This document shows, piece after piece, positions 21,575 through 48,045 of a stretch of 53,587 nt of DNA; the stretch's first letter is position 1; each line of letters begins with the position of its first letter. The translations under genes were made by a program, and so were the position numbers. Where the stretch lies: NCBI RefSeq assembly GCF_017471675.1, contig NZ_JAFUSK010000077.1, positions 1 through 53,587 on the forward strand. Direction: 5' to 3'. Below the pieces are notes generated by a model. That model had not been told where the DNA came from. It searched no databases and saw only the letters and a program-made list of their open reading frames with translations. This DNA is from Pseudobutyrivibrio sp. (GTDB lineage Bacteria; Bacillota; Clostridia; Lachnospirales; Lachnospiraceae).

Positions 21575-21580
21575 GTGAAT

Positions 21581-22276: not shown

Positions 22277-22278
22277 TA

Positions 22279-23301
22279 ATGAAGGCTCTGGTGCTCAATG
22301 ATGTGGGAAAGTTAACAGTGAAGGATGTTCCCGTTCCCAAAGTAGGGGAGGAAGAGGTTTTAGTAAAGGTAGGAGCCTGCGGAATTTGCGGCTCAGATAT
22401 ACCTAGGGTCTATAGGGATGGAGCTCATGTGATGCCTTTAGTGATAGGACACGAATTCGCTGGGACAGTTGCTGAGGACGGTAGACGTGTGGGAGTTTTC
22501 CCACTGATTCCTTGCATGAAGTGTGAGTGTTGTAGGAATCGTAAATACGAAATGTGTTCTAATTATTCTTATTTGGGCAGCCGCAGGGACGGAGGCTTTG
22601 CAGAATATGTAACCGTACCAAAGTGGAATCTTATTGATTTACCAGAAAGCGTCACCATGGAGCAGGCTGCTATGTTAGAGCCAATGGCTGTGGCAGTGCA
22701 TGCTATTAGGCAGGTGAAGCCTTCAGCAGATGATAAGGTTGCTGTTATGGGCCTTGGAACTATAGGGCTTTTGATAGTGATGTTTTTGCTTGATATGGGA
22801 GTTAAAAACGTATATACGATAGGCAATAAAGAGTCACAGAAAAAGATGGTGATGGAGCTAGGAGTTCCTAGTGACCACTATTTAGATGGAACTAAGGCAG
22901 ATATTTTAGAGCATGTTAAGGTAGATGTGTTCTTTGAATGTATAGGAAAACAGGAAAGTTTGTTAGCGGGAATTGCGATGGCAAATCCAAACGGAAGGAT
23001 TTGTACGGTAGGTAATCCTCACAGTGATATGCATATAGATAGAAATATTTACTGGAAAATCCTTCGTAGACAATTAACTCTGGTTGGAACCTGGAATTCA
23101 TCATTTATACACGATGAGCATGACGACTGGCACTATGTACTTCATAGATTGCAGCAGGGGGCAGTTCATCCAGAAAAGCTGATTACACATAGGTATGGGC
23201 TGGAGAACATCGTGGATGGGTTCGAGATGATGAGAGATAGGAAGGAAGAGTATGGGAAGGTAATGTGGATGGCGAAAGATATCAGAAAAGGAGCTTGCTG
23301 A
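22279..23301 (+). CDS. TarJ-like zinc-dependent alcohol dehydrogenase, copy 1
   Basis: The 340-residue medium-chain dehydrogenase has the catalytic-zinc Cys in GACGICGSDIPR, GHEFAG with its His-Glu pair, a structural-zinc cluster CMKCECCRNRKYEMC (about residues 79-93) and a Rossmann motif VMGLGTIGLLI. TarJ reduces ribulose 5-phosphate to ribitol 5-phosphate with NADPH. Pairing with a cytidylyltransferase points to that reaction, but polyol dehydrogenases look alike. AAGGAG (22268-22273) supports the ATG at 22279. A clear paralogue is at 47035-48045. Confidence 0.82.
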   Translation: MKALVLNDVGKLTVKDVPVPKVGEEEVLVKVGACGICGSDIPRVYRDGAHVMPLVIGHEFAGTVAEDGRRVGVFPLIPCMKCECCRNRKYEMCSNYSYLGSRRDGGFAEYVTVPKWNLIDLPESVTMEQAAMLEPMAVAVHAIRQVKPSADDKVAVMGLGTIGLLIVMFLLDMGVKNVYTIGNKESQKKMVMELGVPSDHYLDGTKADILEHVKVDVFFECIGKQESLLAGIAMANPNGRICTVGNPHSDMHIDRNIYWKILRRQLTLVGTWNSSFIHDEHDDWHYVLHRLQQGAVHPEKLITHRYGLENIVDGFEMMRDRKEEYGKVMWMAKDIRKGAC

Positions 23302-28904: not shown

Positions 28905-29840
28905 ATGAAGGCATTAATTACAGGTGGGGCAGGGTTTATAGGATCTAATTTGGTTGAATTACTGGTGAAAGAAGGTCATGAAGTTAGAGTCTTTGATAAT
29001 TTATCATCAGGTCACATTGAAAACATATCAGAATATATAAATGACAAAGATATTGAATATATTGGGGGAGATGTAAGAGATGCGGATGCATTATGTAGAG
29101 CTATGAAAAACATTGATGTTGTTTATCATATGGCAGCTTCAGTTGGTCGCCAAAGATCTATAGATAATCCTGCGTTGGATTCAACAATCAATCTTGTTGG
29201 AACTGTTAATGTCTTGGAGGGGATGAGACATAATGATGTGCACAAGATTGTTTATTCGTCTTCAGCAGCAATATTTGGAGAGTTAAAGACTCCTTCTATT
29301 GACGAAGACCATATACAGAATGCGGATTCGCCTTATGGAGTTAGTAAATTAGCGGCTGAAAAAATGATATTATCATATTCTGGGATTCATAATATAGTAG
29401 GTATTTGTTTGAGATATTTTAACATATATGGTAAAAATCAACGATTTGACGCATATGGAAATGTTATTCCTATTTTTGCCAAAAGAATATTTGATGGTGA
29501 GCATATTAGCATTTATGGAGATGGAGAACAAACAAGAGATTTTGTAAATGTATCAGATGTTGCAAGAGCAAATTATATAAGTTCTATTAAATGTGAACAA
29601 ACATCAATTTATAATTTAGGTAGTGGCACAACAATAACAATAAACGAACTTGCGAGCATGATGAAGAAGATTGCTAATAAAGACGTAATAATTGATTATT
29701 TACCAGAGAGAGTGGGAGATGTGAAACATTGCAAAGCGGACGCTTCTAAGATTGCAAGAGAGCTGGGATTTAGAGTAGAAAAGGACTTGGATGAGGGATT
29801 AAATGAATATATTTCATGGTATAGAGATAATTGTGTTTAA
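28905..29840 (+). CDS. NAD-dependent nucleotide-sugar epimerase/dehydratase
   Basis: The 311-residue short-chain dehydrogenase has an N-terminal NAD motif ITGGAGFIGSNLVELLVKEG, the catalytic Ser in VYSSSAAIFGE and the YxxxK pair in SPYGVSKLAAEKM (about residues 146-150), then YGDGEQTRDFVNVSDVA. The length and motifs fit UDP-glucose 4-epimerase-like enzymes. It is the first gene of the operon and probably makes a sugar donor for the glycosyltransferases that follow. RBS AAAGGAAAAG precedes the ATG. Confidence 0.88.
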   Translation: MKALITGGAGFIGSNLVELLVKEGHEVRVFDNLSSGHIENISEYINDKDIEYIGGDVRDADALCRAMKNIDVVYHMAASVGRQRSIDNPALDSTINLVGTVNVLEGMRHNDVHKIVYSSSAAIFGELKTPSIDEDHIQNADSPYGVSKLAAEKMILSYSGIHNIVGICLRYFNIYGKNQRFDAYGNVIPIFAKRIFDGEHISIYGDGEQTRDFVNVSDVARANYISSIKCEQTSIYNLGSGTTITINELASMMKKIANKDVIIDYLPERVGDVKHCKADASKIARELGFRVEKDLDEGLNEYISWYRDNCV

Positions 29841-29869
29841 TTCTTAGAAGATTAAAAAGTAGGTTATTA

Positions 29870-31039
29870 ATGGTGAAAAAGCTAGTATCGATAATTATAC
29901 CTGTATACAATGGATCAAATTATGTGACCGAGGCAGTTGAAAGTGCACTGAATCAAACATATGAAAACGTAGAGGTTATAGTAGTAAATGATGGTTCTGA
30001 CGATAATGGTAAGACAAGAGAAGTTCTGAAACGATACGATAATCGTATCAAATATATAGAAAAAGAAAATGGTGGTGTTGCATCTGCGTTAAATGTTGGA
30101 ATTAGGAATATGTCAGGCGATTATTTCGCCTGGTTATCACATGATGATATCTTTGAAAAGACAAAAATAGAAAAGCAGATGAATGCAATAAATGCCTGTG
30201 GTGACATGATGAGAATATCTGTAATGAATTATGTCTTTTTTGATGATAAAACTAAGCAGGAGGTCGCAACAGATTTTCAGAATTATTATCCGATAGATAC
30301 ATTAGAAAATTCCATTTTTTTGCTACTATGGGGAGAACTTCATTTTAGCAGTTTGTTATTTAGCAAAAAGCATTTTGATAGAGTCGGTCTTTTTAATGAA
30401 CAATTAAAAACTGCTCAAGATAACGAGTTTTTGTTTAGGCTACTACGAAACCAAAGAATAAGCTTTATAAATGATGTTGGAAGTTATGTAAGATTGCATG
30501 AAAATGCAGGTACATCGCAATATAGAAGTGTAGTTCAGGCTGAGAATAAAAAATTCTATGAATGGGTAAGTAATATGTTAACCGTTGAGGAATTAAAAAG
30601 CATTGGAGGTTTGGAAAAGAGGACTAAGGACAAAATAAATGGAATAATACAAAGCCTTGGACCATATAAGGAGAGCAACGTATCTAATAAAGAGATATGC
30701 GAATTAAATCTTGTGATATGTGGCGCAGGAGTATATGGAAGACGATTAAATTTTGAATTATATTCTAATAATCTGAGACCGTATTGTTTTATTGACAATG
30801 ATAGAATGAAAAATGGAATGATTATAGATGGGACTAGATGTATGGCAATGAATAAATGCAGTCTGCCTAAAGATTCTATTGTAATTATTTCAAATAAATT
30901 CTATGAACCCTTATTGAAAATATTAAATGAGAATGGAATAAAAAGAATACTGAAAAAAATAGACATAGACGCAATGATTTTGAAGTATTCAGATGAAGAT
31001 TTGAAGGAAATGATAAAAAGGAAGATGGACAATGTCTAG
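29870..31039 (+). CDS. GT2 glycosyltransferase with C-terminal Rossmann-like domain
   Basis: The 389-residue protein has a GT-A glycosyltransferase (VSIIIPVYNGSNYV, EVIVVNDGSDD, WLSHDDIFEKTKI with a DxD-like HDD) in about residues 1-230. A separate domain begins near residue 278 with LVICGAGVYGRRLNFELY and then CFIDNDRMKNGMIIDG. This second domain recurs across the operon. The ATG at 29870 is chosen over the TTG at 29831 because family homology starts there, though its RBS (TAGG) is weak. Overlaps the next gene by 8 nt. Confidence 0.85.
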   Translation: MVKKLVSIIIPVYNGSNYVTEAVESALNQTYENVEVIVVNDGSDDNGKTREVLKRYDNRIKYIEKENGGVASALNVGIRNMSGDYFAWLSHDDIFEKTKIEKQMNAINACGDMMRISVMNYVFFDDKTKQEVATDFQNYYPIDTLENSIFLLLWGELHFSSLLFSKKHFDRVGLFNEQLKTAQDNEFLFRLLRNQRISFINDVGSYVRLHENAGTSQYRSVVQAENKKFYEWVSNMLTVEELKSIGGLEKRTKDKINGIIQSLGPYKESNVSNKEICELNLVICGAGVYGRRLNFELYSNNLRPYCFIDNDRMKNGMIIDGTRCMAMNKCSLPKDSIVIISNKFYEPLLKILNENGIKRILKKIDIDAMILKYSDEDLKEMIKRKMDNV

Positions 31040-31475
31040 AATATTAAGACAGCTAAAACAGCATGATAAGGATATTTGTATATATGGATTAGGGAAGATG
31101 GGGGCATGTATGTTTTGGTCTTTTAGAGAGTGCGGAATGCAAGAAGACTATTACGCAGATAAAGATCCTAATAAACAAAATCTTAATATTGACGGTATTA
31201 AATGTATTTCTTTTGATGACTTGTTGAAGAAAGACAGAAGTATCATTCTTATAGTAGCACTGTATGACTATAAATCGGTTGTAAAATCGTTTGTTACAAT
31301 GGGATTTAAAAACGTATATAACTACAAAGAGGTACTGCATGCTATAAGAAAAGAGCCTAAGAGAAATTTTAAGCAGATAAGGAGTTATGAGGAAGCATAT
31401 AAAGTAAAGCAAGTTGTAAAAGAATGGCTATGTAGAGGTGTCAAACTAAATATAAATGATTTGCTTGAGGGTTGA
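31032..31475 (+). CDS. Stand-alone Rossmann-like domain protein
   Basis: The 147-residue protein consists almost entirely of the operon's shared domain: ICIYGLGKMGACMFWSF (about residues 14-30), DYYADKDPNKQNLNIDGIKC, and SIILIVALYDYKSVVKSFV. It has no catalytic domain and a short basic C-terminal tail. The GxGxxG loop suggests nucleotide or nucleotide-sugar binding. It could be a detached scaffold or regulatory subunit. It starts within the end of the GT2 gene. Confidence 0.65.
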   Translation: MSRILRQLKQHDKDICIYGLGKMGACMFWSFRECGMQEDYYADKDPNKQNLNIDGIKCISFDDLLKKDRSIILIVALYDYKSVVKSFVTMGFKNVYNYKEVLHAIRKEPKRNFKQIRSYEEAYKVKQVVKEWLCRGVKLNINDLLEG

Positions 31476-31477
31476 TA

Positions 31478-32695
31478 ATGAAAGTATTAGAAGTAAACTT
31501 TGCAGATTTGATGGGACATATTTTTAATGGTTATGATTTGATGAATTCATTAAATCTCAAGAAAGAATTTGATATAAAACAAGTTGTCGAGCATAAGAAA
31601 TCAGAAAATCCCAATGTTTTAAAGGTATCTGATTATAGCGGTATTTATTATGACCTATACAAGGAATTAGAGAATAGATGCCATGTTAGTCATCTTTTTA
31701 CTGGAACGGGAGAGCAAATATTGCAGTTAAAAGAATATCAAGAAGCGGATATAGTGCATTTCCATATACTACACAATAGATTTATATCATTACTAGATTA
31801 TCCAGATTTATTTAATAATAAAAAAAGTATTTGGACAATTCACGATCCATGGATTTTGACGGCGAATTGTGTCTACCCATTAGAATGTCAGAAATGGAAG
31901 ACATTTTGTAATAAGTGCCCAAAAGAAGGAGATTTTAGATATGGAAAAGACAATCTTGCAAATAGCTTTATGTGGGATGTAAAGAAAAATGTATTAGCTT
32001 CAATCAATCCCCATATCGTGGTTTCTTGCGACTATATGAAGCAGTTGCTAGAACAGAGTCCGCTAACAAAGCATTTAACCAAAATACATGAAATACCATT
32101 TGGTATAGACGCTGGAAAATATATTTATAATCAAAAAATTCAAAAAAGAAAAAAATATGGATTAAGTGAAGATAAATTGGTAATTGGCTTTAGAACAGGT
32201 GGGAAAATTAAGGGAGGTCAGTATTTATACAAGGCCTTAAAGAAAATAAAGATTAAAGAACCAATAGAATTGGTTGTAATTGGAGGGGAAGAAAAAATCG
32301 GTTATCTGGGTAATAAAATAAAAGTACATCAGTTAGGATGGCTGTACAAAGAAGCCGATGTGATAGATTTTCTGGAATGTTGTGATATTTTTGCAATGCC
32401 GTCTTTAGCAGAGACTTTTGGATTGATGGCAATAGAAGCAATGGCTGCAGGGTGTGCTGTAATATGCTTTAATAACACAATTCTTGAAAAAATAACGAAT
32501 TCGCCTAAATGTGGAGTGGCAGCAGATTATTGTTCTGTCAATTCCTTGAAAAATGAAATAGAAAGAATGATAAATAACCCAGATGAAATAAAGCAAAGAG
32601 GAAAACTATCCAGGAAGTTTGTTGAAGAAACATATAAATATGACGATTATGTTCGTAAACATGCTCAGCTTTATAAAGAGATTTATGAGGAGTAA
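31478..32695 (+). CDS. GT4-family glycosyltransferase
   Basis: The 405-residue GT-B protein contains HIFNGYDLMNSLN near the start, WTIHDPWILTANCVYP (about residue 126) and the C-terminal donor-binding motif PSLAETFGLMAIEAMAAG (Glu-x7-Glu, about residue 310). A CxxC-like cluster (CQKWKTFCNKC) near residue 140 is typical of a subset of GT4 enzymes. GAGGG precedes the ATG at 31478. It starts 2 nt after the previous stop. Confidence 0.87.
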   Translation: MKVLEVNFADLMGHIFNGYDLMNSLNLKKEFDIKQVVEHKKSENPNVLKVSDYSGIYYDLYKELENRCHVSHLFTGTGEQILQLKEYQEADIVHFHILHNRFISLLDYPDLFNNKKSIWTIHDPWILTANCVYPLECQKWKTFCNKCPKEGDFRYGKDNLANSFMWDVKKNVLASINPHIVVSCDYMKQLLEQSPLTKHLTKIHEIPFGIDAGKYIYNQKIQKRKKYGLSEDKLVIGFRTGGKIKGGQYLYKALKKIKIKEPIELVVIGGEEKIGYLGNKIKVHQLGWLYKEADVIDFLECCDIFAMPSLAETFGLMAIEAMAAGCAVICFNNTILEKITNSPKCGVAADYCSVNSLKNEIERMINNPDEIKQRGKLSRKFVEETYKYDDYVRKHAQLYKEIYEE

Positions 32696-32697
32696 AG

Positions 32698-33654
32698 ATG
32701 TATACGTTTCCATACTATTTATGCAAAAAGAATAGCAATATAGTTTTATATGGCGCAGGTAAATGCGGTCTATCATTTTATGTTCAACTTAGAATGAATG
32801 GATATTGTAATGTGCTTGCCTGGGTAGATAAACAATTCGATTCAGATGTGAAGCCCCCATTTGAAAGCGTAAATAATATTAATAAGTACGATTATGATTA
32901 TATAGTTATTGCCATTGAGAATTTTCATGTGGCAATGGACGTTAAAGATATACTAATAAAAAATGGTGTCAACTCAGAGAAAATCGTATGGTCAGCACAA
33001 TATATAATGACAGATGCCTTTTTTCCATCAGATATGAAGCGTTTGTATGAAGAGTTTGATTTTTATATGGATATCTTTGATGAGTATATGAAGGGGAATA
33101 TAGAATATGGGGCCGATCAGTATTACCAGAGTAACAAGTTGTTAAATTTGTCAGGGGCAAGAAATACAGAATACAGAATTCAAGAATATGAAATTAAAAA
33201 ATTCTTAAATAAGAAAATGAATGTTTTAAATATTGGCTGCAATACTGGATTTTTAGACATTCAAATAGCACCATTTGTCAATCATATTACAGGCATAGAT
33301 ATAAATAGGGGAGTTGTAAATGTTGCAAATAAAACTGCGATGCATTTGGAAGTAGAAAATGCTAATTTTATTTGTAAAGATGTTATTTCAAAAGGTGTCA
33401 GTAATAAATATAACGCCATTTTGCTTTTGGCAGTGCATGGAATATTTGAAGATAGTAAAGAGTTTTTAAAAATCACAGGGGCAATAGAAGAAAAGGGGTA
33501 CTTGTTATTTGAATCTCATGAAGTCCCTGGAGACGAAACAAGATATATTAATAGATTAAAGCTATTAGAAGAAAATGGATTTAACAGTTGCTTGTTTAAG
33601 ATTATCAAAGATGGCGGGATTACTCGAATGTATAGTATTTTACGGAAGGGTTAG
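32698..33654 (+). CDS. Methyltransferase with N-terminal Rossmann-like domain
   Basis: The 318-residue protein begins with the shared domain (IVLYGAGKCGLSFYVQL, about residues 14-30, then VLAWVDKQFDSD). A class I SAM methyltransferase domain follows, with VLNIGCNTGFLDIQIA near residue 176, ITGIDINRGVVNVA, and a hydrophobic strand before LLAVHGIFEDSKEF. The likely role is O- or N-methylation of a sugar or lipid-linked intermediate. RBS GAGGAG lies 5 nt upstream. Confidence 0.8.
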   Translation: MYTFPYYLCKKNSNIVLYGAGKCGLSFYVQLRMNGYCNVLAWVDKQFDSDVKPPFESVNNINKYDYDYIVIAIENFHVAMDVKDILIKNGVNSEKIVWSAQYIMTDAFFPSDMKRLYEEFDFYMDIFDEYMKGNIEYGADQYYQSNKLLNLSGARNTEYRIQEYEIKKFLNKKMNVLNIGCNTGFLDIQIAPFVNHITGIDINRGVVNVANKTAMHLEVENANFICKDVISKGVSNKYNAILLLAVHGIFEDSKEFLKITGAIEEKGYLLFESHEVPGDETRYINRLKLLEENGFNSCLFKIIKDGGITRMYSILRKG

Positions 33655-33663
33655 ATAATTCAT

Positions 33664-34626
33664 ATGAATCAGTATAGTGACATAGAATCTTTGTGTGATG
33701 ATAAGCTATTTCTTTCGAGAGCCGAAGAATGTGAGATTTCTGATGAGCTGGATATACTTATACAAAAGGCTAAAAGAATTATACGAGAATGCTATCCCAA
33801 TGAGGTATATACATATTCGTTGCCAGAAAAAGGACATAGATGCAATGTAAAATTGATTCAAAATGACGCAATAAAATATATTATTTCATTTCCTGATAAT
33901 ACGATTAAAAATGATTTGCGTGAGATAACCAGGATTAAAGAGGCTTTGGGACTAAATAGAGAGCTTATAGTGTATGAAGAAGATGGTTTTTATATAATGC
34001 AAAAAGCAGATGAGGTGATTGATTGGAATAGGTCAATTATTGTCGATTGTATAAAGAAACTTCGTCAAATGCATAATAGTAATTTATCAATCAACAGAGC
34101 ATTTGTTAATAACTATAGGATTCTAGAAAAAAAATTCAGAGATTCAATAACGGATGCAAAGATTACTGAATTATTTGGATGGGATGTATCTGCATGGATT
34201 GATACTGAAATAATGACGTACCTCAACAAATATAAGCCGGTCTTATGTCATGGAGATGCTTCATATGGAAATGTTTTGCTGTTCAACAATAAGGCCGAAT
34301 GGATAGATTGGGAATTGCTCCAGATGAGTAATCCGATGTTTGATATTTTTTATTTTTTTGAAAGCTTGTACAGCGGAAATATGATGAGCGAGCAGATGTC
34401 CATACAAGATTTTTTGCATGTTTATTATGAAGATAGAAATTTATCGTCAAAAGAAAAAATGAATGTGATTTGCATGGGAATATATTTCCTGTATTGGAGA
34501 ATTTTAAATAACGCAAAGTCTGGAATAATAGACGAGGAAACAATCAGGGTTATCAACAGAATGAAACTGCTCTGGCAGAAAAAGAAATTTGATGAAATAT
34601 ATAAATATTATATGGGGGACGACTGA
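33664..34626 (+). CDS. Choline/ethanolamine kinase-like phosphotransferase
   Basis: The 320-residue protein has the aminoglycoside-phosphotransferase/choline-kinase fold. The Brenner motif is VLCHGDASYGNVLLF (about residue 197), followed by the Mg-binding EWIDWELLQMSNPMFDIFYF. The N-terminal lobe contains CNVKLI and YIISFPDN strands. LicA-type kinases make phosphocholine for surface decoration, but a sugar or amino-sugar kinase is also possible. Its end overlaps the next start by one base. Confidence 0.75.
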   Translation: MNQYSDIESLCDDKLFLSRAEECEISDELDILIQKAKRIIRECYPNEVYTYSLPEKGHRCNVKLIQNDAIKYIISFPDNTIKNDLREITRIKEALGLNRELIVYEEDGFYIMQKADEVIDWNRSIIVDCIKKLRQMHNSNLSINRAFVNNYRILEKKFRDSITDAKITELFGWDVSAWIDTEIMTYLNKYKPVLCHGDASYGNVLLFNNKAEWIDWELLQMSNPMFDIFYFFESLYSGNMMSEQMSIQDFLHVYYEDRNLSSKEKMNVICMGIYFLYWRILNNAKSGIIDEETIRVINRMKLLWQKKKFDEIYKYYMGDD

Positions 34627-35786
34627 TGAAGTGGACAAATAGAGGGCATGAATTTGATAAAATAGGTGAAAATTTCAAAAATAAGCAAATTATATTTTAT
34701 GATATGGCAGAGGACACATACCATCTCTTTAATAGATTACAAAGGATTAATAAAAATCTTATTGCTGCAATCGTAGTCGATGGAGATAAAAACGATGAAG
34801 AAATATGCGCAGTTAAAACTATTACAAAGCTGGAGTTTGCTTCTATGCCGATTGACAATTATATAGTGGTTCTCTGTTGTACAAATGCCGCCAATTATCG
34901 GGCCCAAGCGCATAGGCAGGCAATCAATTTGGGATATAAAGATGGAGAATCATTGTTCTATTATGATACTTTTGAATACTACTATCTGCCGATTTTTTTA
35001 TATTATTCACTTGGAATATTATATTTTAAGACTTTAAATATGGTGATAACCACAGTGTGTAACTTAAACTGTAAAGGATGCTTAAATTACACTTCATATA
35101 ATAGTAATAAACACAGTTTCACTCTAGAAGAATTAAAGAGAAATGTAGACGTGGTGTTTAATAGAGTTGATTTTACCGGGCTATTCTTGATATCAGGAGG
35201 AGAACCTTTTCTTCATAAGGATATCATTCCTTTAGTAGATTACATCGGTGAGAAATATCGAAAAAACATACTGCGATTAAGTATAGTTACAAACGGAACT
35301 ATTATTCCATCGGAAGAATTAGTTAAATGCTTAAAACGGAACAATGTATATGTGCAGATTGATGATTACGGTAGATCAATAGAATCGCTTTCTAAGGCAT
35401 CCGATATAGAATATATATTAAATGATTACGGTATTAAATGTGAAGTTTTGAGAGTACCATATTGGATTAATATGGATCCAGTAGATGAGGACGGCGTTGA
35501 TATTTTGGCAAAAGTAAATGCCTGCAATGTACCGTTTACCGGAACTAAATCCGGCAGATTATTTGGTTGTACATATAATCAATTTGCAATCGAAGCAGGG
35601 CTTATATCAGTTGACAATTTGGATAATGAATCTCTTGATTTAGAAAAAATATCGGATAAACGTACTATACTTGAAATGCAGATGGGATATAGTCCAAATG
35701 GATTTTGGGAATTTTGTAAGATGTGTCCTGGGCATGAATGGATGAACAACGATAGTATCGTACCAGGACAACAACTCGGGAAGTAG
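34626..35786 (+). CDS. Radical SAM enzyme with N-terminal Rossmann-like domain
   Basis: The 386-residue protein has an N-terminal region resembling the operon's shared domain but with a degenerate loop (IIFYDMAEDTYHLF, about residues 22-35). A radical SAM core follows whose 4Fe-4S Cys are Cys145, Cys149 and Cys152 (CNLNCKGC), with LFLISGGEPFLHKDI next. Extra Cys residues near the C-terminus (CKMCPG, also ACNVPF) may bind a second cluster. The reaction is unknown; sugar epimerisation or dehydration would fit the context. No precursor peptide is nearby. Confidence 0.82.
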   Translation: MKWTNRGHEFDKIGENFKNKQIIFYDMAEDTYHLFNRLQRINKNLIAAIVVDGDKNDEEICAVKTITKLEFASMPIDNYIVVLCCTNAANYRAQAHRQAINLGYKDGESLFYYDTFEYYYLPIFLYYSLGILYFKTLNMVITTVCNLNCKGCLNYTSYNSNKHSFTLEELKRNVDVVFNRVDFTGLFLISGGEPFLHKDIIPLVDYIGEKYRKNILRLSIVTNGTIIPSEELVKCLKRNNVYVQIDDYGRSIESLSKASDIEYILNDYGIKCEVLRVPYWINMDPVDEDGVDILAKVNACNVPFTGTKSGRLFGCTYNQFAIEAGLISVDNLDNESLDLEKISDKRTILEMQMGYSPNGFWEFCKMCPGHEWMNNDSIVPGQQLGK

Positions 35787-35796
35787 GTGATATATT

Positions 35797-36999
35797 ATGA
35801 AGATTCTTTTGCTTAGCGATTTGCCTCCGTGTATTAATCATACGGGGGGATTATTTCTAGATAGATTATGTACATATTTAATCGAAAGTGGATGCGAAAT
35901 AGTTGCATATATCGTTAAAAATGATGAAGTGTACACTGTTCTGCCGGAAGACAAAAAGCAAAGTATAAAATTTAAATTTGACAGGAAACCAAGAGAAAAT
36001 GTAGGACATACTAAAGGGCCTGTAGCCTCATTAGTATTTGATAGATTTACAAATATTACGTATATACCCAAGTTGGAAAAGCGTATCCTAGATTTTATAA
36101 ACACTGAAAAACCTGATTTGATTTGGGGCGTAATTCAAGGACAAACAATGACAAAAATTGTTAGACCTATAGCTGAAAAGAGCAATGTGAAATATATTAT
36201 ACAGTTTTATGATGCCATTAGTTGGTGGTTTCAAGCTAATAGAGTAGACAGGCTGACTCAAAAAAGAGTAATGAAAGAATATGGAAAGATGTTGAAAAAT
36301 TCGTATTGTTTCATAGGTGCGTCAGACGAAATGGCAAGGGATTATGCAAAGAAATATGATATAGCTCGAAGCGTGGGAATAATGATGCCGTTTGATAAAG
36401 GAAATCAATATAGTGAAAAAGTGGAAAGAGATGACAGTGATTTTGTTATAGCAATCTCGGGACAATTGTATGCACGAAGTACTATTGCAGCAATGACAGA
36501 AGCTCTATCACAAATGAAATGGCAATATAGGGGTAAAAGAATAGTATTTAGAATCTATGGACCCGAAATAGTTTTCTACGGTCTACAAAATGCATATATC
36601 GAGTATAGAGGTTGGATTGAACAAGAACAATTATTATACGAACTAAATGAAGCAGATTTATTATATTGTCCGTATAGGTTTGACGAAGATTTTAGAGAAG
36701 TAGCAAGCTATTCATTTCCAGGAAAGCTATCAACATATATGAAAACAGGTGTACCTATAGTTGTTCATGCACCTGATTATTCATCAATATCGAAGTTTAT
36801 AAATAAACATAAATGTGGTTATATTATAAACACTGTAGATGTCGAAAAAGTAAAAACAATAATTCAAGAAATCATTATATCTAAGGATAAGAATAAATAT
36901 GTTGAAAGGGCAAATGAGACAGCTAATGTGTTCTTATCGGAAGAAACGACGAAAAGGAAAATGTTATATTCTGTGGGATTGAGAGATACATATGATTGA
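35797..36999 (+). CDS. GT4-like glycosyltransferase
   Basis: The 400-residue protein has a GT-B layout: KILLLSDLPPCINHTGGLFL at the N-terminus, KPDLIWGVIQGQTM, and a C-terminal donor domain with FVIAISGQLYARSTIAAM, YIEYRGWIEQEQLL, LNEADLLYCPYRF and FPGKLSTYMKTGVPIVVH. The Glu-x7-Glu motif is not clear, so the donor is uncertain. RBS TAGGTG precedes the ATG. It overlaps the next gene by 8 nt. Confidence 0.8.
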   Translation: MKILLLSDLPPCINHTGGLFLDRLCTYLIESGCEIVAYIVKNDEVYTVLPEDKKQSIKFKFDRKPRENVGHTKGPVASLVFDRFTNITYIPKLEKRILDFINTEKPDLIWGVIQGQTMTKIVRPIAEKSNVKYIIQFYDAISWWFQANRVDRLTQKRVMKEYGKMLKNSYCFIGASDEMARDYAKKYDIARSVGIMMPFDKGNQYSEKVERDDSDFVIAISGQLYARSTIAAMTEALSQMKWQYRGKRIVFRIYGPEIVFYGLQNAYIEYRGWIEQEQLLYELNEADLLYCPYRFDEDFREVASYSFPGKLSTYMKTGVPIVVHAPDYSSISKFINKHKCGYIINTVDVEKVKTIIQEIIISKDKNKYVERANETANVFLSEETTKRKMLYSVGLRDTYD

Positions 37000-38257
37000 T
37001 TATAGGATGCTAAAATCGAAGACTATAATAGTTTATGGCACAGGGGAACGAGCTGAATCTGCTATTAATCATTTAAAGAATAATGGATTAATTGAAGAAG
37101 TAAAGGGGTTCACAAATAGTTTTATAGAAGAAGAGGATGTGTTATTGGGTAAAACTGTTTATCCATTACAGAAAGTATTATTACTGTTTGAAGATGCATT
37201 TTTTTATATATCGCCGATAGAACCTGTTAAAAGCGAAATCATTGCGAGCTTGACACAAATAGGAATACCAATCGATAGAATAATTAATGCAACCGTTAGA
37301 TTCCTGAGTTGTGACGAATTACAAAAAGGGATAATAATAGCAACGTCAGGATTGGTAAGCTGTTGTGCTGAGCCGGGAAAGAATAAGCCGTTTGAATCGA
37401 AATGGGACGATTTTGAAACGATAGAAGTAGCGATTGGGGATTATTGGGAAAACCGAAATAAGAATATTGAATTATTAAAAAGTAACGAAGGCGCATGTGG
37501 TTCATGTACTTATGCAAAAGTAAAACCGTGGAGTAAAGATCAACAAATCGAAATAGTTAACATAGGGTTATATTATCCATGCCAATTATCGTGCTGTTAT
37601 TGTAATTGGATATGTAATGCGGCACATAAGAATAGTTTAGAGAAGAAAAAACGTATAGAAAAAGCACAAAATATTGATGTTGGAAGAGTAATTCGCTACA
37701 TGGAAGAGCAAAAAATGTTTTCTAAAGAAGGATTAGTATCTATTGCATCAGGTGAGTTTACATTGGCGAATAGACGTGACGAAGTACTAGAACTGATAGG
37801 AGAACATAAGCTTGCAGTTTTGACTAATGGTATCTTTTTTAATGAAAAGATAGCTAAAATGACTGCTAGAAATGACGGGAGTTATTTAAATGTTTCACTT
37901 GATGCAGGTACAAAGCAAACGTATTTCGAGGTAAAAGGATTAAATGTTTTTGAACGCGTATGCGAAAATTTATTGCGATATAAATCATTTGGTTCAAATA
38001 TTCAATTAAAATATATTTTCTTAGAATCAAATATTTCCGAAGAAAATATTATTGGTTTTATAAATATTGTTAAAAGGATAAAACCAAGCGTGGTTATTGT
38101 ATCATTTGATTATAATTTAGGAAGAGTCGATATAGATGAAAGAATAGTTTTAGCGATTTCAAAGATGATAAGGCTGTTGGATAAACTTAACATTCAGTAC
38201 TCATTTGTAGATGCTCTTGGCAAGGACAACATAGATAATATCAAAAAGTATATATGA
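36992..38257 (+). CDS. Second radical SAM enzyme with N-terminal Rossmann-like domain
   Basis: The 421-residue protein starts with the shared domain (IIVYGTGERAESAINHL, about residues 8-24). The radical SAM Cys motif is Cys197, Cys201 and Cys204 (CQLSCCYC), preceded by another Cys group, GACGSCTYAK. Later segments IASGEFTLANRRDEVLELI and LNVSLDAGTKQTYFEV fit the core barrel. The protein differs enough from the first radical SAM enzyme to suggest a distinct step. It overlaps the next gene by 4 nt (ATGA). Confidence 0.82.
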   Translation: MIDYRMLKSKTIIVYGTGERAESAINHLKNNGLIEEVKGFTNSFIEEEDVLLGKTVYPLQKVLLLFEDAFFYISPIEPVKSEIIASLTQIGIPIDRIINATVRFLSCDELQKGIIIATSGLVSCCAEPGKNKPFESKWDDFETIEVAIGDYWENRNKNIELLKSNEGACGSCTYAKVKPWSKDQQIEIVNIGLYYPCQLSCCYCNWICNAAHKNSLEKKKRIEKAQNIDVGRVIRYMEEQKMFSKEGLVSIASGEFTLANRRDEVLELIGEHKLAVLTNGIFFNEKIAKMTARNDGSYLNVSLDAGTKQTYFEVKGLNVFERVCENLLRYKSFGSNIQLKYIFLESNISEENIIGFINIVKRIKPSVVIVSFDYNLGRVDIDERIVLAISKMIRLLDKLNIQYSFVDALGKDNIDNIKKYI

Positions 38258-39408
38258 GGATTGTATTAATGATGGAGTTTATTGAAAAAGTAGTAATTAG
38301 GACGCAATGCACTTGTTATTATTGTGGAGAAATATGGTTTTTCTCGAATGAGATAAATGCACTCTTTAAAATTAATCCACAGACAATGCAATCGAAGTAT
38401 GTAACATCGATTGAAGGATATCCTATAAATACAGGATGGTTATTCACTAAAATGATTCCATATAAGGATAGATTGATTCTTATACCTTTTGTGGCAAAAA
38501 GATTAATTATTTATTGTCCAAACACTAAAGAGACAAAATATATAGAATTTAATCTAGAGGATGATAGTCCGTATTTTGTTGTTAGTGAGATGTTCGATCA
38601 GCACTCAATTATACTATTTCCTGCAATTAAGCATGGATATTATTATATATATAATCTTGAAGATGAGATGGTTACACGTCATAGACTGGAATCTAATATG
38701 TTTATAAACGGCTCAGACAAAACATTGGAGATAGTAAGTTCTGGCGTAATGCATGATGATAGATATATTATAAATATACTAAAGTCGAATAGATTAATGT
38801 ATTTTAAGAATAATTCTTGTAGTTTAAAGTTTGATAATATAACTACGCTGAAAAAGCGAGTATGCGCAATCGAAAAGTATAACGAAAAGTATTTTATAGC
38901 GTTAGATTCAACCGGTGATAATCTTTTTATGGTAGATTATGATGGGAAAATTACGGAAGAATATTGTTTAGGAGCGGTTCATGGTGAAAAACTCTATATG
39001 TTTGAAGAGCTTATGGGGTATTCTGCAATAAAGAATCTTGGAAATGAATTGGTTATGGCTATTCCGGTTAAAGGGAATGATTTGATAATACTATATGATG
39101 GGGAAGTAATTCGTTTGAAATTAAACTGGGAGTTTATAAAAACTACATGTGATAATGCAAAACCGTTTTCAGATGTAATAGTAGATCAAAACTATTATTA
39201 TTTAATGCCATATCAAAGTAGTACAATAGTCCAAATAAGTATAAAAAACTATACAATAGAGTATTTTGAAAGACCTGATGTTTCGACGCAAGTTATCTAT
39301 GCAAAAGTTGATTTATATACAAATAAGGAAAATAAGAATCTTATACTACAAGAAGGGGATATTACGATTGAAGACTATATAAAAGTAATTCGAAAAAATA
39401 TTAAGTGA
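38254..39408 (+). CDS. Unknown protein, possible beta-propeller
   Basis: The 384-residue protein is unrecognised. It consists of repeated short strands with aromatic and Asp/Asn turns (GEIWFFSNEINALFKINPQT, NLFMVDYDGKITEEYC, YYYLMPYQSSTIVQISIKNY). This suggests a beta-propeller like those that read or bind polymers. There is no signal peptide, so it should be cytoplasmic. Its tight position in the operon (ATGA overlap with the radical SAM gene) implies a role in the same pathway. Confidence 0.6.
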   Translation: MRIVLMMEFIEKVVIRTQCTCYYCGEIWFFSNEINALFKINPQTMQSKYVTSIEGYPINTGWLFTKMIPYKDRLILIPFVAKRLIIYCPNTKETKYIEFNLEDDSPYFVVSEMFDQHSIILFPAIKHGYYYIYNLEDEMVTRHRLESNMFINGSDKTLEIVSSGVMHDDRYIINILKSNRLMYFKNNSCSLKFDNITTLKKRVCAIEKYNEKYFIALDSTGDNLFMVDYDGKITEEYCLGAVHGEKLYMFEELMGYSAIKNLGNELVMAIPVKGNDLIILYDGEVIRLKLNWEFIKTTCDNAKPFSDVIVDQNYYYLMPYQSSTIVQISIKNYTIEYFERPDVSTQVIYAKVDLYTNKENKNLILQEGDITIEDYIKVIRKNIK

Positions 39409-39438
39409 AGAATAATAAATTAGTATATGAGGAGATAT

Positions 39439-40437
39439 ATGGTAAACGTGGAAAATAATGAAGAATGTTTTGATTTGTTTTTGTCGATAGGTCATAATTG
39501 CACACCAGCATTCAATTTGCGTGATAATTATTTGAGAATTATTTCGGCGCCATTAGATTGGATGTATGGATACTCATTAAATACGGTTTTACATTTATTT
39601 AAAAGTGGTTTTACTGATTTTTTTATTCAATATGAGATAGATTAGGCTAACCCTAATGGAGATACGGGTAAATTAAGAGTGAATGACACTTTAAATAACA
39701 TAGTGTCAATTCATCATTTTCCAAAAGATATTTGGTTAGATACGTCATATTCGCAATTTGTTTCGAAAATGGGTTCTCGAATTAAAAAAATGGATATATT
39801 TTTAAAGAAGTCTAGTAGTATAGTTTTAGTGGGGAATCGTAGTGAAACACGAGAGGAAATATGTTTATTTTTAAGAGAGTTCTCTAATATTTATCCCCAT
39901 GTAAATGTTCGTTTAATTAATATGCGAAATGATGATGGTATTAATTACAATGAATATATAGAAAAGAGGATATTTAGAGAGGGAAAAATAGATTATATAG
40001 AATATTTACTTAATGATACACAACAAGGTGTCAAAGTATTAGAGGGTAATGCGTACGTATGGGCGCAGATATTGTCAAAGTATAATACTAAAGAGCAACT
40101 TATGATAAAAAAAGAGTGGACACGTTTTCGCGAGGAGAATAAACTTGTTGTAATTTATGGAGCTGGAAAAAGGTGCATTTCTACAATAAACTGGTTAAAA
40201 ACGTTTGGGGTAAGTATTGATGGAATTGCTGTTTCTTCGATGAAGGATAATCCAGAGGAAATTGATAGAATTCCTGTCAAAATGTATTCCTTGTATCCAT
40301 ATGATGTTGCGATAATTATAAGTATAGCTAGTAAAATCGAGGCAAAGATGGTTTATAAACTGCTTGATTCACGTGGATATAAGAATATCTCATATATTAA
40401 TGAACAAAATATGAAGAGAATCACAGAAGAGGAATAA
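39439..40437 (+). pseudogene. DUF1796-Rossmann fusion gene interrupted by one in-frame TAG
   Basis: Two open frames in the same reading frame are split only by TAG at 39643-39645. The first part (CFDLFLSIGHNCTPAFNL, SAPLDWMYGYSLNTVLHL) matches the start of DUF1796, a putative papain-like cysteine peptidase family. The second part continues it (NNIVSIHHFPKDIWLD, SIVLVGNRSETREEICLFL) and ends in the operon's shared domain (VVIYGAGKRCISTINWL). GAGGAG (39429-39434) supports an ATG at 39439. The downstream part could start at GTG 39679, but no clear RBS is seen. Either a nonsense mutation, a sequencing error or stop readthrough. Confidence 0.72.
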
Positions 40438-40451
40438 GGATTATATATAAT

Positions 40452-42479
40452 ATGTTGTCAAAAGCGTTTATTAATCATTTTTATTCCATAGCACTCTACG
40501 GTCTTGGTACCGAAACAGAAAGGCTCATTTCCCAGTGGGGAAGTGGGCCTAAAATAGTTGGTTTATTAGATGGCTTTAAGGAATCGGGAGAAGCATTTGG
40601 TTATCCAATTATATCATTGCAGCAGGCGGTGGATGCTAAAGTGGAAGCTATTATAGTTGTAGCCCGTCCTGGCTCGTGCAAAGTAATAGCTAAAAGGATA
40701 AAAGCAGTATGCCAGTCTAACGGTATACTTGTTTATGATGTTCGTGGAAATGATTTGTTAGCTGAGACAAAAGTATTATATGATTTTGGAAATATTAACG
40801 TATATACGAAATCAGATTTATTGGCAAAAGTGCAAGAGTCGGATGTAATTAGCTTTGATTTATTTGATACCCTAATAGCTAGAAAAGTGCTTTATTATAC
40901 AGATATATTCGAGCTAATTGATGCTAAATTGCGCGAGCAAAAAATTTATATACCTGAATTCTCAAAGCTAAGACTTGCTGCAGAAAAAGAGCTGTCAAAG
41001 AATGCAGCGCCAAAACTCAGTAATATTTATGATTGGGTGATTAGTCAGCATCCAGAATGTAATCTTTCTTCCAATGAATTAGCCGAAATAGAGTGGCAAA
41101 TTGATAAGCCTATCATGTATACTCGCGATGGTATGAAGGATTTATTATCTGAAATAACTACTTTAGGAAAGAGGATTGTAGTTACCACAGATACATATTA
41201 TAGCAAACAGCAGATTGAGGAATTGTTGGCGCTGATGGGATATAAACACATTGATAAAGTGTATGTATCCAGCGAATATAATGTTTCTAAAGCTAATGGA
41301 TTATTTGAAATAGTTAAAAATGACAATAGGGACCAAAGTATTCTACACATCGGAGATGATGAATACGTAGATATCGAAAAGGCTTCAGAGTATGGTCTTA
41401 ATAACTATCGTATATACGGAGCGAAAGATATATTTGATGAAGTAGGTGCCTTTGGATTATCATCGAATATTAAATCGTACTCCGATAATGTGAAGGCGGG
41501 ATTAGCGTTGTCAAAATTATTTTCTAATCCATTCCAGTTTGAAACATCAAACAAAAAGATATCAATAAATAACGCAAAAGATATAGGATATTTCATCTGC
41601 GGGCCAATGGTTTTAGATTTCGCTTTTTGGTTTGAAGATAAGCTGAGACATATTGGGGCCGAAAATGCTTTATTGTGCGCTAGAGATGGATATTTGTTAA
41701 AGAAAATATTCGATCGAATAGATTCGGAAGTTAATTCGGTATATTTCCTAACTTCCCGCACCTCTGCAATACGTGCAGGCATCGAAAATGAGGATGACAT
41801 AGCCTATGTTGATAGCATGAAGTTCTTTGGAACACAGGAAGAAAGCATGATTGCACGATATGGTATCACTTTAAAGAATGATGTAGATAGAAATATCACA
41901 ATCATTAATAAAGCTAAATTGCAACGCGAAAATTATCAAAAATATATATCAAATCTGAATCTTAAAGACGTTCCAACAGCTGTCTTTGATTTTGTTGCTA
42001 AAGGAACAACCCAATTATTCCTTCAGAAGATAATGAATCAGCCACTCAAAGGATTGTATTTCTTACAGCTTGAGCCAGAGTTTATGGCTGATAAAGGAAT
42101 AGACATAGAATCTTTCTACACAGAAAAAGAGCGTGATACCAGTGCTATATTTGATAACTATTATATTCTAGAAACTATTTTGACATCGCCTATGCCATCT
42201 GTTGATGAATTTGATGAAGCGGGACAACCTGTCTATGCAAAAGAAACTAGAAGCGATGAGAATCTGGAATGTGTATCGCGAATGCAGCAGGGAATTATGC
42301 AGTATGTAGATGATTATCTAGAAATTGTTCCCGTATCCATGAGACAGCAGAATAAAATGTTGGATGAGGCATTTTTAACTTTAATTGGAAAGTTGGAAAT
42401 TACAGATCAGTCATTTAAGAATCTTGTTGTAGAAGATCCATTTTTTGGAAGGATGACAAATATAGTTGATGTGATGTAA
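40452..42479 (+). CDS. Large HAD-family protein with N-terminal Rossmann-like domain
   Basis: The 675-residue protein begins with the shared domain (SIALYGLGTETERLISQW, about residues 11-28). A HAD phosphatase domain follows with motif I SFDLFDTLIARK (Asp136, Asp139), a VVTTDTYYS segment and LHIGDDEYVDIEKA. A third region (FICGPMVLDFAFWF, LLCARDGYLLKKIFDRI, AVFDFVAKGTTQLFL) is shared by large HAD proteins found in polysaccharide loci. It may remove a phosphate from a glycan intermediate. It is the last gene of the operon. Confidence 0.78.
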   Translation: MLSKAFINHFYSIALYGLGTETERLISQWGSGPKIVGLLDGFKESGEAFGYPIISLQQAVDAKVEAIIVVARPGSCKVIAKRIKAVCQSNGILVYDVRGNDLLAETKVLYDFGNINVYTKSDLLAKVQESDVISFDLFDTLIARKVLYYTDIFELIDAKLREQKIYIPEFSKLRLAAEKELSKNAAPKLSNIYDWVISQHPECNLSSNELAEIEWQIDKPIMYTRDGMKDLLSEITTLGKRIVVTTDTYYSKQQIEELLALMGYKHIDKVYVSSEYNVSKANGLFEIVKNDNRDQSILHIGDDEYVDIEKASEYGLNNYRIYGAKDIFDEVGAFGLSSNIKSYSDNVKAGLALSKLFSNPFQFETSNKKISINNAKDIGYFICGPMVLDFAFWFEDKLRHIGAENALLCARDGYLLKKIFDRIDSEVNSVYFLTSRTSAIRAGIENEDDIAYVDSMKFFGTQEESMIARYGITLKNDVDRNITIINKAKLQRENYQKYISNLNLKDVPTAVFDFVAKGTTQLFLQKIMNQPLKGLYFLQLEPEFMADKGIDIESFYTEKERDTSAIFDNYYILETILTSPMPSVDEFDEAGQPVYAKETRSDENLECVSRMQQGIMQYVDDYLEIVPVSMRQQNKMLDEAFLTLIGKLEITDQSFKNLVVEDPFFGRMTNIVDVM

Positions 42480-46279: not shown

Positions 46280-46361
46280 AAATGTTTAGCAGGTAATAGC
46301 CACACTTCACCCCAATTTTACATTCCCCCGCTAGACTCCTATTCATAAAGGAGTGAGGCTT

Positions 46362-47057
46362 ATGAATATAGGAATTTTACTAGCAGGAGGATGTGGCAGT
46401 CGCATGAAGTGCGATATGCCCAAGCAACTAATAAAGATAAACAATAAGCCGCTTATGTGTTATGCATTAGCGGCTTTTTTGGACTGCAAAATGATTGACC
46501 AGGTGCAGATTGTCATCAGTGATGATTGCCTAGAAAAGGTGGCGGATGACATTATTGCCATGGGAAATACTGAGAAAATAATGGGATTTTCAAGGGCGGG
46601 CGCCACCAGGCAGGAGTCAATTCTAAACGCCCTAAACGATATGGTGTATAGGATATCAGAAGAAGATGTGGTGGTGATTCACGATGGGGCAAGGCCACTG
46701 GCGTCCCAACAGCTGTTTGAAAAATTAATCACATCTATGGAAGGCTGCGACGGAGTAATCCCAGTGCTGCCGGTGAAGGATACCATATATAGATGTGCCG
46801 ATGGAATCTGGATTGATGAGGCTTTAGACAGAAGTCATCTGGTGGCAGGGCAATCGCCGGAAGCGTTTTTATATGGAAAATATCTAAAGGTCAACAGGCT
46901 TTTAGAAAAGCAAAATCGTATATGCGATATCTGTAGTTCCACCGAGGCGGCGATTTTGGCAGGAATGAAAATAAAAATGATTGAAGGTGAAGAGAACAAT
47001 TTTAAGATTACAACTCAGGAGGATTTGAAACGTTTTGAAAGCATTATTGCTAAGTGA
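46362..47057 (+). CDS. TarI/IspD-like cytidylyltransferase, copy 2
   Basis: The 231-residue protein carries LLAGGCGSRMKCDMPKQLIK, VVIHDGARPLASQQL, DGVIPVLPVKDTIY and EAAILAGMKIKMIEGEENN. It is the same length as copy 1 at 21581 and clearly paralogous, with different residues around the substrate loop. It probably makes CDP-ribitol or a related CDP-polyol. AAGGAG (46348-46353) supports the ATG at 46362. It overlaps the dehydrogenase gene by 23 nt. Confidence 0.82.
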   Translation: MNIGILLAGGCGSRMKCDMPKQLIKINNKPLMCYALAAFLDCKMIDQVQIVISDDCLEKVADDIIAMGNTEKIMGFSRAGATRQESILNALNDMVYRISEEDVVVIHDGARPLASQQLFEKLITSMEGCDGVIPVLPVKDTIYRCADGIWIDEALDRSHLVAGQSPEAFLYGKYLKVNRLLEKQNRICDICSSTEAAILAGMKIKMIEGEENNFKITTQEDLKRFESIIAK

Positions 47058-48045
47058 TATAGGAAAACTAGAGATACTTGAACGACCTGTGCCACTCCTT
47101 GAGTCTAACCATGTGTTAGTAGAGGTGAAGGCTTGCGGCATCTGCGGCTCAGACATCCCACGGGCATATACTGATGGAGCCCATCGTATGCCGATAGTGC
47201 CAGGACATGAGTTTGCAGGGGTGGTTAAAGATGTGTCGGCGGATGTGGATAAAAGCTGGCTTAACAAAAGAGTAGGTGTATTTCCATTACTTCCATGCAT
47301 GAAATGCAGCCAATGTAGAAAACAGCACTACGAAATGTGTGAAAACTATTCCTATCTAGGTTCTAGGACAGATGGTGGTTTCGCAGAATATGTATCAGTG
47401 CCAAGCTGGAATCTGATTGAACTACCAGACACTGTAACCTTCAAGCAGGCTGCCATGCTAGAGCCGCTTGCTGTAGTAGCTCACGCTATTAGAAAGCCAG
47501 CAGTAAAGCCTAATGACGAGGTCACAGTTATAGGCCTTGGGGCAATCGGATTACTTACAACCATGCTGCTAAAAGAGGTGGGTGTAGATATCGTATATAC
47601 GATAGGAAACAAATCATATCAGAATGAGTATGCTGCAACCCTTGGAGCCTGTCCTATTACACCAGCGGAAAGTTCATCAGCTGTGGTTTTTGAATGTGTT
47701 GGAAGTGAACAATCCTTGCAGCAGGCAATAGAGCTGGCTGCCCCGGCTGGCACCATTGTCCTTATAGGCAATCCAAGGCAGGATATGAACTTGCCAAAAG
47801 AAATATATTGGAAGATTTTACGCAAACAACTAAAGATAATAGGAAGTTGGAATTCAACCTTTAACCATGATAAAAACGATGATTGGCACTTTATCCTATC
47901 CATTCTTGCCAACCAGGAAAACAAAGATTTTCATCCAGAAAAATTTATCACCCACGAATTCAGTTTATGCAATATCCGGGATGGCTTTGAAATTATGCGA
48001 TTAAAGCAAGAGCCTTACGTGAAAATCATGATGGTAGCAGAGTAG
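47035..48045 (+). CDS. TarJ-like zinc-dependent alcohol dehydrogenase, copy 2
   Basis: The 336-residue protein has KACGICGSDIPRAY, PGHEFAG, the structural-zinc cluster CMKCSQCRKQHYEMC and the Rossmann motif VIGLGAIGLLT. Alignment to copy 1 at 22279 is nearly collinear, especially around GVFPLLPCMKC and NYSYLGSR. It starts with TTG at 47035, inside the cytidylyltransferase gene, with AGGAGG 12 nt upstream. The likely reaction is ribulose 5-phosphate reduction to ribitol 5-phosphate. Confidence 0.82.
   Translation: MKALLLSDIGKLEILERPVPLLESNHVLVEVKACGICGSDIPRAYTDGAHRMPIVPGHEFAGVVKDVSADVDKSWLNKRVGVFPLLPCMKCSQCRKQHYEMCENYSYLGSRTDGGFAEYVSVPSWNLIELPDTVTFKQAAMLEPLAVVAHAIRKPAVKPNDEVTVIGLGAIGLLTTMLLKEVGVDIVYTIGNKSYQNEYAATLGACPITPAESSSAVVFECVGSEQSLQQAIELAAPAGTIVLIGNPRQDMNLPKEIYWKILRKQLKIIGSWNSTFNHDKNDDWHFILSILANQENKDFHPEKFITHEFSLCNIRDGFEIMRLKQEPYVKIMMVAE

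Follow-up and report, generated by a model that had tools for sequence, protein, structure and literature searches.

A small accessory domain with a Rossmann-type signature, here called the module, is almost certainly shared by seven proteins encoded in one operon of the gut bacterium Pseudobutyrivibrio sp. The operon occupies positions 28905 to 42479 on the forward (+) strand of a 53,587-nucleotide stretch of DNA (the window), which is one contig (C51) of a 3.1-Mb draft assembly. The module spans roughly 80–95 residues and, judged from sequence, is one specific family that is joined to a family 2 glycosyltransferase (GT2), a methyltransferase, two radical S-adenosylmethionine (SAM) enzymes, a DUF1796 protein, and a HAD-superfamily protein, or stands alone as a protein of 147 residues. 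Across related gene islands, the module marks enzymes acting on a growing glycan, namely transferases, methyltransferases, and radical SAM modifiers. We tentatively propose, with slightly less than even confidence, that it is an interaction and sensing module of a cytosolic glycosylation pathway whose acceptor is probably flagellin.

Detection and Specificity of the Module

A preliminary description of the operon held that seven of its products share one Rossmann-like domain, and an independent profile bears this out. The profile was seeded from the stand-alone copy alone and built from relatives only, with the window and its orthologous cluster L050 left out. Against the 78 open reading frames (ORFs) of the window, it recovers exactly the seven carriers, with expect values (E) between 1e-22 and 6e-5. 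Per 100 sequences, these are 9.6e-23 for the stand-alone protein, 1.3e-17 for the GT2, 2.3e-12 for the C-terminal part of the DUF1796 protein, 1.8e-9 for the methyltransferase, 1.1e-7 for the HAD protein, 1.2e-6 for radical SAM enzyme 2, and 6.2e-5 for radical SAM enzyme 1. The best non-carrier ORF of the window reaches 0.045, as does the best of 20 × 78 shuffled proteins. The true Rossmann enzymes of the window, a zinc-dependent dehydrogenase (0.073) and an epimerase (0.2), are not matched, so the module is a specific family and more than the shared fold; a generic Rossmann coincidence is thereby ruled out. Used alone as the query, the stand-alone protein matches the C-terminus of the GT2 with E 0.03. 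The seven proteins and their motifs lie where the preliminary description had placed them, and they account for 7 of the 12 matches at E ≤ 0.01 in the whole source genome.

An iterated profile, run on the window and on 20 relative loci (L033–L052) from 18 genomes, identifies 140 modules in 138 ORFs across the 21 loci, and the window contributes seven of these modules. The weakest match (L043, 14516–15856) is the own domain of a UDP-glucose dehydrogenase; this false match was dropped, is absent from the alignment, tree, and GT2 counts, and leaves 132 module occurrences in the 20 relative loci. Among the titles and abstract beginnings listed by literature searches aimed at the module, none describes it.

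The most conserved positions of the aligned modules include the loop glycines G5 (96%), G7 (83%), and G10 (68%), together with D29 (80%) and G77. G5, G7, and D29 are jointly kept in 88 of 138 aligned rows, one row being a fragment. The family thus has the features of an NAD(P)-type Rossmann domain: a strand, a GxGxxG loop, and an acidic residue ending the second strand. The nearest solved chains are 3nkl (8e-11), Rex (3e-9), and VioB (2e-7). A glycine loop and an Asp-bearing strand had been described throughout the seven window copies. All four signature residues are retained in three. None of the three glycines survives in radical SAM enzyme 1, rightly called degenerate. The DUF1796 and radical SAM 2 copies lack both the Asp of the second strand and the third glycine, and the HAD copy lacks the third glycine alone.

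Partner Enzymes and Stand-Alone Copies

The partners of the module fall into 42 sequence groups, or 41 without the false match, and are given here as about 40 because strict grouping leaves some groups in one Pfam family. According to a Pfam scan of one representative per group, partners beyond those of the window comprise GT2, GT4, GT8, GT11, GT92, WbsX, TOD1, NKWYS, RgpF, Caps_synth, TupA ATP-grasp, Maf/MptE-like, WcbI, FkbM, TylF and other methyltransferases, DUF4422, DUF362, DUF268, a deacetylase, FrhB, an epimerase, and a cytidylyltransferase, while a few groups match nothing or no partner family. With the false match included (n = 140), 66 modules are N-terminal, 51 C-terminal, 6 internal, and 17 stand-alone.

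Carriage of the module differs between kinds of enzyme. It is present on 26 of the 33 GT2 ORFs in the 20 islands and on 23 of the 24 radical SAM ORFs in L033–L052; since the islands were picked for holding the module, 26 of 33 is no population rate, and module carriers were also the source of the profiles used for counting. Few enzymes that make nucleotide-sugar precursors carry it, roughly 2 of 38, a figure summed from Pfam tallies assumed to be disjoint and drawn from 141 of the 195 non-module ORFs. Epimerases and nucleotidyltransferases are the commonest families among the non-module neighbors, which also include 5 LicD and 5 IspD proteins among the 141 scanned genes and 4 Hexapep matches.

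The stand-alone copy had been taken for a possible scaffold, and its recurrence is what would be expected of an adaptor: 17 short stand-alone ORFs occur in the 21 loci, of which about three are perhaps fragments. In seven of the 17, the N-terminus is extended and includes a hydrophobic stretch (maximum over 17 residues 1.4 to 2.7): L040 4399–4938, L040 7853–8323, L041 2634–3113, L044 12112–12600, L047 7584–8090, L048 9179–9652, and L051 12642–13145. It is possible, as a lead only, that these seven are membrane-anchored adaptors that pair with enzyme-borne modules. The stand-alone copy of the window has no hydrophobic stretch. In six of the seven, a Trp followed by a hydrophobic residue lies 20 to 30 residues ahead of the module, and every one of the five WbsX-group members shows the same feature (four of the five Pfam-checked). 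The Trp-containing helix of most of these stand-alone proteins resembles the stretch that precedes the module in WbsX proteins.

Clustering across Genomes and the Module Tree

The module is co-localized across genomes, a point that the preliminary description had put up for checking. In the other sampled Lachnospiraceae genomes, the source genome excluded, 65 of 89 matches lie no more than 10 kb from a second one, compared with 3.5 on average under random placement. Among 60 Lachnospiraceae genomes drawn regardless of the module, 30 have a match at E ≤ 1e-8 and 17 remain as carriers once Rex-sized matches (open frames of about 210–250 residues) are removed; the latter are single genes outside islands. 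A phylum-wide sample has matches at E ≤ 1e-10 in 19 of 149 genomes, two of them in Lachnospiraceae and six with Rex-sized matches only. Of the other 11 genomes, six hold at least two modules, across five families.

The module tree clusters strongly by partner type, with 45 label changes against 71–81 in shuffles, and indicates that modules travel with their enzyme. Labels of locus require 105 changes, against 106–117 when shuffled and 100–113 when shuffled within partner type. Since modules group by partner type and hardly by cluster, the ligand should be a general one. A shared ligand or docking module had been proposed for enzymes acting on one carrier-bound intermediate. The parts of this proposal that hold are that the module is shared, is co-localized, and sits on most island GT2s and radical SAM ORFs but on few precursor enzymes; a ligand peculiar to one intermediate is not supported by the locus labels. 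No evidence was found for a CDP-polyol as the common ligand, another suggestion of the preliminary description. The tree also rules out recent duplication inside the operon: for the five window modules with an orthologue in L050, the nearest relative is that orthologue or, for HAD, another HAD module, and never an operon neighbor.

A Probable Soluble Glycan Pathway

Loci with initiating enzymes of the PF02397 family, taken from Lachnospiraceae as well, served as a control. Such enzymes are present in 59 of the 60 Lachnospiraceae genomes, and 20 PF02397 loci were taken from the first 21 listed. None of their 57 GT2s carries the module, so its attachment to island GT2s and radical SAM enzymes is not the random placement beside unrelated genes that would speak against a common role. 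The single module-profile match in these loci is a PF13727 dehydratase (4e-9). With two PF02397 enzymes as queries, no PF02397-like ORF was found in the window or the islands.

Polytopic proteins are almost missing from the islands. Of the 221 ORFs lying between the outermost module genes, a single one is polytopic, compared with 28 of 290 in the PF02397 loci, or 23 of 270 after excluding the PF02397 enzymes, a recount made because these loci are centered by choice on a membrane protein. The hydropathy count is crude, as polytopic ORFs were detected in just 12 of the 20 PF02397 loci. In 20 flagellin-centered loci (up to 20 kb, about 10 kb to each side of hag-sized flagellins chosen by hand, 12 of them from carrier genomes), 16 of 337 ORFs are polytopic. 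The operon proteins of the window have at most one hydrophobic segment each. A polysaccharide locus that is initiated by PF02397 or is of the Wzx/Wzy type is ruled out by the missing PF02397-like ORF, the lack of a polytopic operon protein, and the count of 0 of 57 GT2s. Given the near absence of membrane proteins, the product is probably made in the cytosol on a soluble acceptor, and the islands very probably encode a soluble glycan pathway.

The Link to Flagellin

Flagellated genomes are enriched among carriers. The source genome itself has seven Flagellin_N matches, and all 25 island genomes tested first, the source included, have Flagellin_N genes. At E ≤ 1e-25, flagellin is found in 30 of the 60 family genomes: in 15 of 17 carriers versus 15 of 43 non-carriers (Fisher p 4e-4), and in 12 of 12 carriers with at least two module copies. 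All of another 13 genomes, 11 from outside Lachnospiraceae, have it, as do 13 of 14 more; the remaining genome has one module.

The islands also tend to lie near flagellin genes. Of 47 islands with at least two modules, 24 share a contig with flagellin and 22 lie within 45 kb of it, where at most 5.8 would be expected, an upper-bound estimate. This comparison uses a hand-made table, in which the two modules of one island (G054) are separated by 366 bases. Where islands are unlinked, they mostly sit on other contigs of draft assemblies, which leaves their linkage undecided. At locus L046, two flagellin genes are one ORF away from the island, and the GT2 and HAD modules of this locus are among the nearest to those of the window. 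Four Maf-like ORFs occur in three islands, and three of the four carry the module. Passages of PMC2914790 describe the flagella of P. ruminis OR77 as glycosylated and the flagellar genes of Butyrivibrio proteoclasticus as flanked by two exopolysaccharide loci, and a part of PMC13317340 notes that modification genes of Clostridium at times lie apart from the flagellar locus. Flagellin is the probable target of this class of islands.

Comparison with Known Systems

A published functional precedent is the accessory domain PF13727 of WbaP, which, in the part of PMC10942596 on this domain, holds most of the dimer contacts and responds to uridine monophosphate and diphosphate (UMP and UDP). Dimerization and nucleotide response in one accessory domain are therefore known (PMC10942596, same part). 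Like the module, PF13727 of WbaP/PglF-type enzymes is a small accessory domain on glycan enzymes, and the module profile finds a PF13727 dehydratase, as noted above. However, PF13727 is absent from the 20 families listed for the modules (0 of 80 at E ≤ 0.01), and its partners are membrane phosphoglycosyltransferases and dehydratases, whereas those of the module are soluble enzymes of about 40 groups.

The most frequent Pfam relative is the N-terminal domain of PglD, NeuD, and VioB (PF17836), with matches to 16 of the 80 modules at the same cutoff; VioB is also among the nearest solved chains. PF17836 is matched neither by the stand-alone copy of the window nor by the family as a whole. In PglD, the N-terminal domain precedes a hexapeptide acyltransferase, but no such enzyme is found among the partner-group representatives. 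CoA_binding (PF02629), the family of the Rex C-terminal domain, matches 9 of the 80 modules, and Rex chains are hit at 3e-9. Rex is a repressor with a DNA-binding N-terminal domain; no DNA-binding partner is seen among the window carriers or group representatives. The C-terminal domain of C-methyltransferases (PF08484) matches 5 of the 80 and is likewise fused to sugar methyltransferases, although it is known from one partner type only, compared with about 40 groups for the module.

The flagellin glycosylation islands of Clostridium, Geobacillus, and C. difficile resemble those described here as variable glycan genes of flagellated Gram-positives. They contain variable genes, methyltransferases, and nucleotidyltransferases, with a phospho-linked modification in C. 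difficile, as described in parts of PMC13317340, PMC5109656, and PMC10714395. In those parts, a shared accessory domain is not mentioned, and the word "Rossmann" does not occur in PMC5109656 or PMC10714395. A further difference is that the island of the window does not adjoin flagellin.

Proposed Role and Alternative Explanations

In the proposed explanation, the acceptor-side enzymes of a cytosolic glycan pathway carry the accessory module, and the product would take shape in the cytosol, attached to a soluble acceptor. This acceptor is most likely flagellin because the islands tie to flagellated genomes and flagellin genes, a tie that is weaker for the window. The module would be an interaction and sensing domain, a role drawn by analogy with the WbaP accessory domain, and would pair with other modules, with stand-alone copies as adaptors. 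Such pairing may keep successive enzymes near one acceptor, and a nucleotide in the GxGxxG pocket may act as a regulator. The docking role is plausible at somewhat under even chances, and nucleotide sensing, which does not exclude docking, is slightly less so.

Several observations weigh against this explanation. The signature is incomplete in four of the seven window copies, although HAD is short by the third glycine alone. Cluster-specific likeness of modules is absent, as those of the same cluster are hardly closer than chance. None of the seven Flagellin_N matches lies on the contig of the window, whose island is thus not beside flagellin, and the window has no Maf-like match. The islands of the L003 genome (G448) and of G153, a congener of the window's genome, are not on flagellin contigs; in G448, the module matches are on contig C18 and not on C20, the contig with a flagellin. 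Island and flagellin are 445 kb apart in the one-contig G265 and 121 kb apart in G299. Two of the 17 carriers have no flagellin match. In the flagellin-centered loci, none of nine GT2s carries the module and one Rex-sized ORF is the sole match; the lack of modules immediately around flagellins reduces the flagellin link to one at the scale of tens of kilobases. For the window's own island, flagellin as the target is a possibility on the doubtful side.

A narrower explanation, which we consider unlikely, is that the module binds UMP, UDP, cytidine diphosphate (CDP), or nicotinamide adenine dinucleotide (NAD) as a sensor of nucleotides or nucleotide sugars and adjusts the enzyme that bears it, without any assembly of the proteins with one another. 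The nearest solved relatives (3nkl, Rex, VioB) are nucleotide-binding Rossmann proteins, G5 and D29 are well conserved, and the WbaP accessory domain responds to nucleotides (PMC10942596, same part). Yet a short stand-alone copy lacks an enzyme whose activity it could tune, and the signature is incomplete in the majority of window copies. The 57 GT2s sampled from PF02397 loci presumably depend on nucleotide sugars but lack the module, and no use of nucleotide sugars is known for the radical SAM, DUF362, and deacetylase partners. Alternatively, and with a similarly small likelihood, the islands may produce a polymer of the cell surface, for example a teichoic-acid-like glycan, with flagellar linkage reflecting a shared chromosomal neighborhood only. 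This would suit the IspD and dehydrogenase pairs at the two ends of the window, the LicD and IspD proteins among the scanned non-module genes, and the lack of linkage between the window's island and flagellin. It sits poorly with the near absence of polytopic proteins between module genes, with a tie to flagellated genomes that holds also where islands are unlinked, and with the Maf-like ORFs that carry the module.

Evolutionary hitch-hiking, in which a recombination-prone domain spread through glycan genes with no common function, would agree with a tree that follows partner type, with the existence of degenerate copies, and with mosaic gene content between near-identical strains. It is nevertheless very unlikely, since the count of 0 of 57 GT2s in PF02397 loci and the repeated attachment to about 40 groups at either end are hard to explain without selection. 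A bolder form of the interaction and sensing role, rather improbable as it stands, is that cytosolic protein glycosylation in flagellated Bacillota uses the module as a universal docking code, through which acquired enzymes would plug, without a lipid carrier, into an assembly around flagellin organized by stand-alone and sometimes membrane-anchored modules. If the interaction and sensing role is true, a portable domain would identify the glycan enzymes of one cytosolic pathway, account for the uptake of new enzymes by hypervariable glycosylation islands, and offer a means of linking sugar-modifying enzymes to one another. Some 40 groups of loosely annotated enzymes, radical SAM included, would become testable candidates for the modification of flagellin or other protein glycans.

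Genes of the Operon

The operon is 96.9% identical across 8.2 kb to a contig of Pseudobutyrivibrio ruminis SIG311. Its genes run, in order, epimerase, GT2, stand-alone protein, GT4, methyltransferase, APH-like kinase, radical SAM 1, GT4-like, radical SAM 2, a protein of no known family, DUF1796, and HAD, all on the forward strand. The first encodes an NAD-dependent sugar epimerase/dehydratase (28905..29840; PF16363 5e-58, PF01370 8e-56), whose Rossmann fold is its own and catalytic and is not the module (0.2, as above). The GT2 (29873..31039; PF00535 8.5e-31) carries the module at its C-terminus (30707–30976, E 1.4e-21). The stand-alone protein (31032..31475; module 31065–31343, E 2.3e-26) has weak and scattered Pfam hints, to 2-Hacid_dh_C, CoA_binding, and Methyltransf_14, each under its cutoff. 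A GT4-type glycosyltransferase without the module follows (31472..32695; PF00534 1.5e-23).

The methyltransferase (32698..33654; PF13847 5.7e-11) has an N-terminal module (32728–33009, E 3.3e-14), and the next protein, an APH/choline-kinase-like phosphotransferase (33664..34626; PF01636 4.9e-7), has none. Radical SAM enzyme 1 (34626..35786; PF04055 1.6e-14) bears the degenerate N-terminal module (34677–34979, E 9.1e-12) and is separated by a second GT4-like protein without the module (35797..36999; PF13692 9.4e-7) from radical SAM enzyme 2 (36992..38257; PF04055 1.6e-7), also with an N-terminal module (37016–37288, E 2.6e-10). A protein of 384 residues without the module (38254..39408) is matched by nothing in Pfam (E ≤ 1) or NCBIfam (E ≤ 0.1). 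At the matching position, locus L003 has a protein of 373 residues with a similar start.

The DUF1796 gene is split by an in-frame TAG at 39643–39645 into an N-terminal piece (39439..39645; PF08795 1.4e-8 on this piece) and a downstream piece (39679..40437) that carries the C-terminal module (40138–40413, E 9.2e-16). The stop codon may reflect a broken gene, a case of read-through, or an assembly error. In the near-identical cluster of L003, this gene and radical SAM 2 are both absent. The HAD-superfamily protein of 675 residues (40452..42479; TIGR02253 4.9e-8, under the curated cutoff) has an N-terminal module (40482–40721, E 6.0e-10). When the HAD gene is compared with L003 at the DNA level (noted for 40909–41982), its N-terminal part is 76% identical, its end 94%, and its middle unmatched; this patchy match suggests recombination within the gene. 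Flanking the variable island are pairs of an IspD-like protein and a zinc dehydrogenase, of the CDP-ribitol type, at 21575–23298 and 46353–48042, the first of which is preceded by a ribulose-phosphate epimerase.

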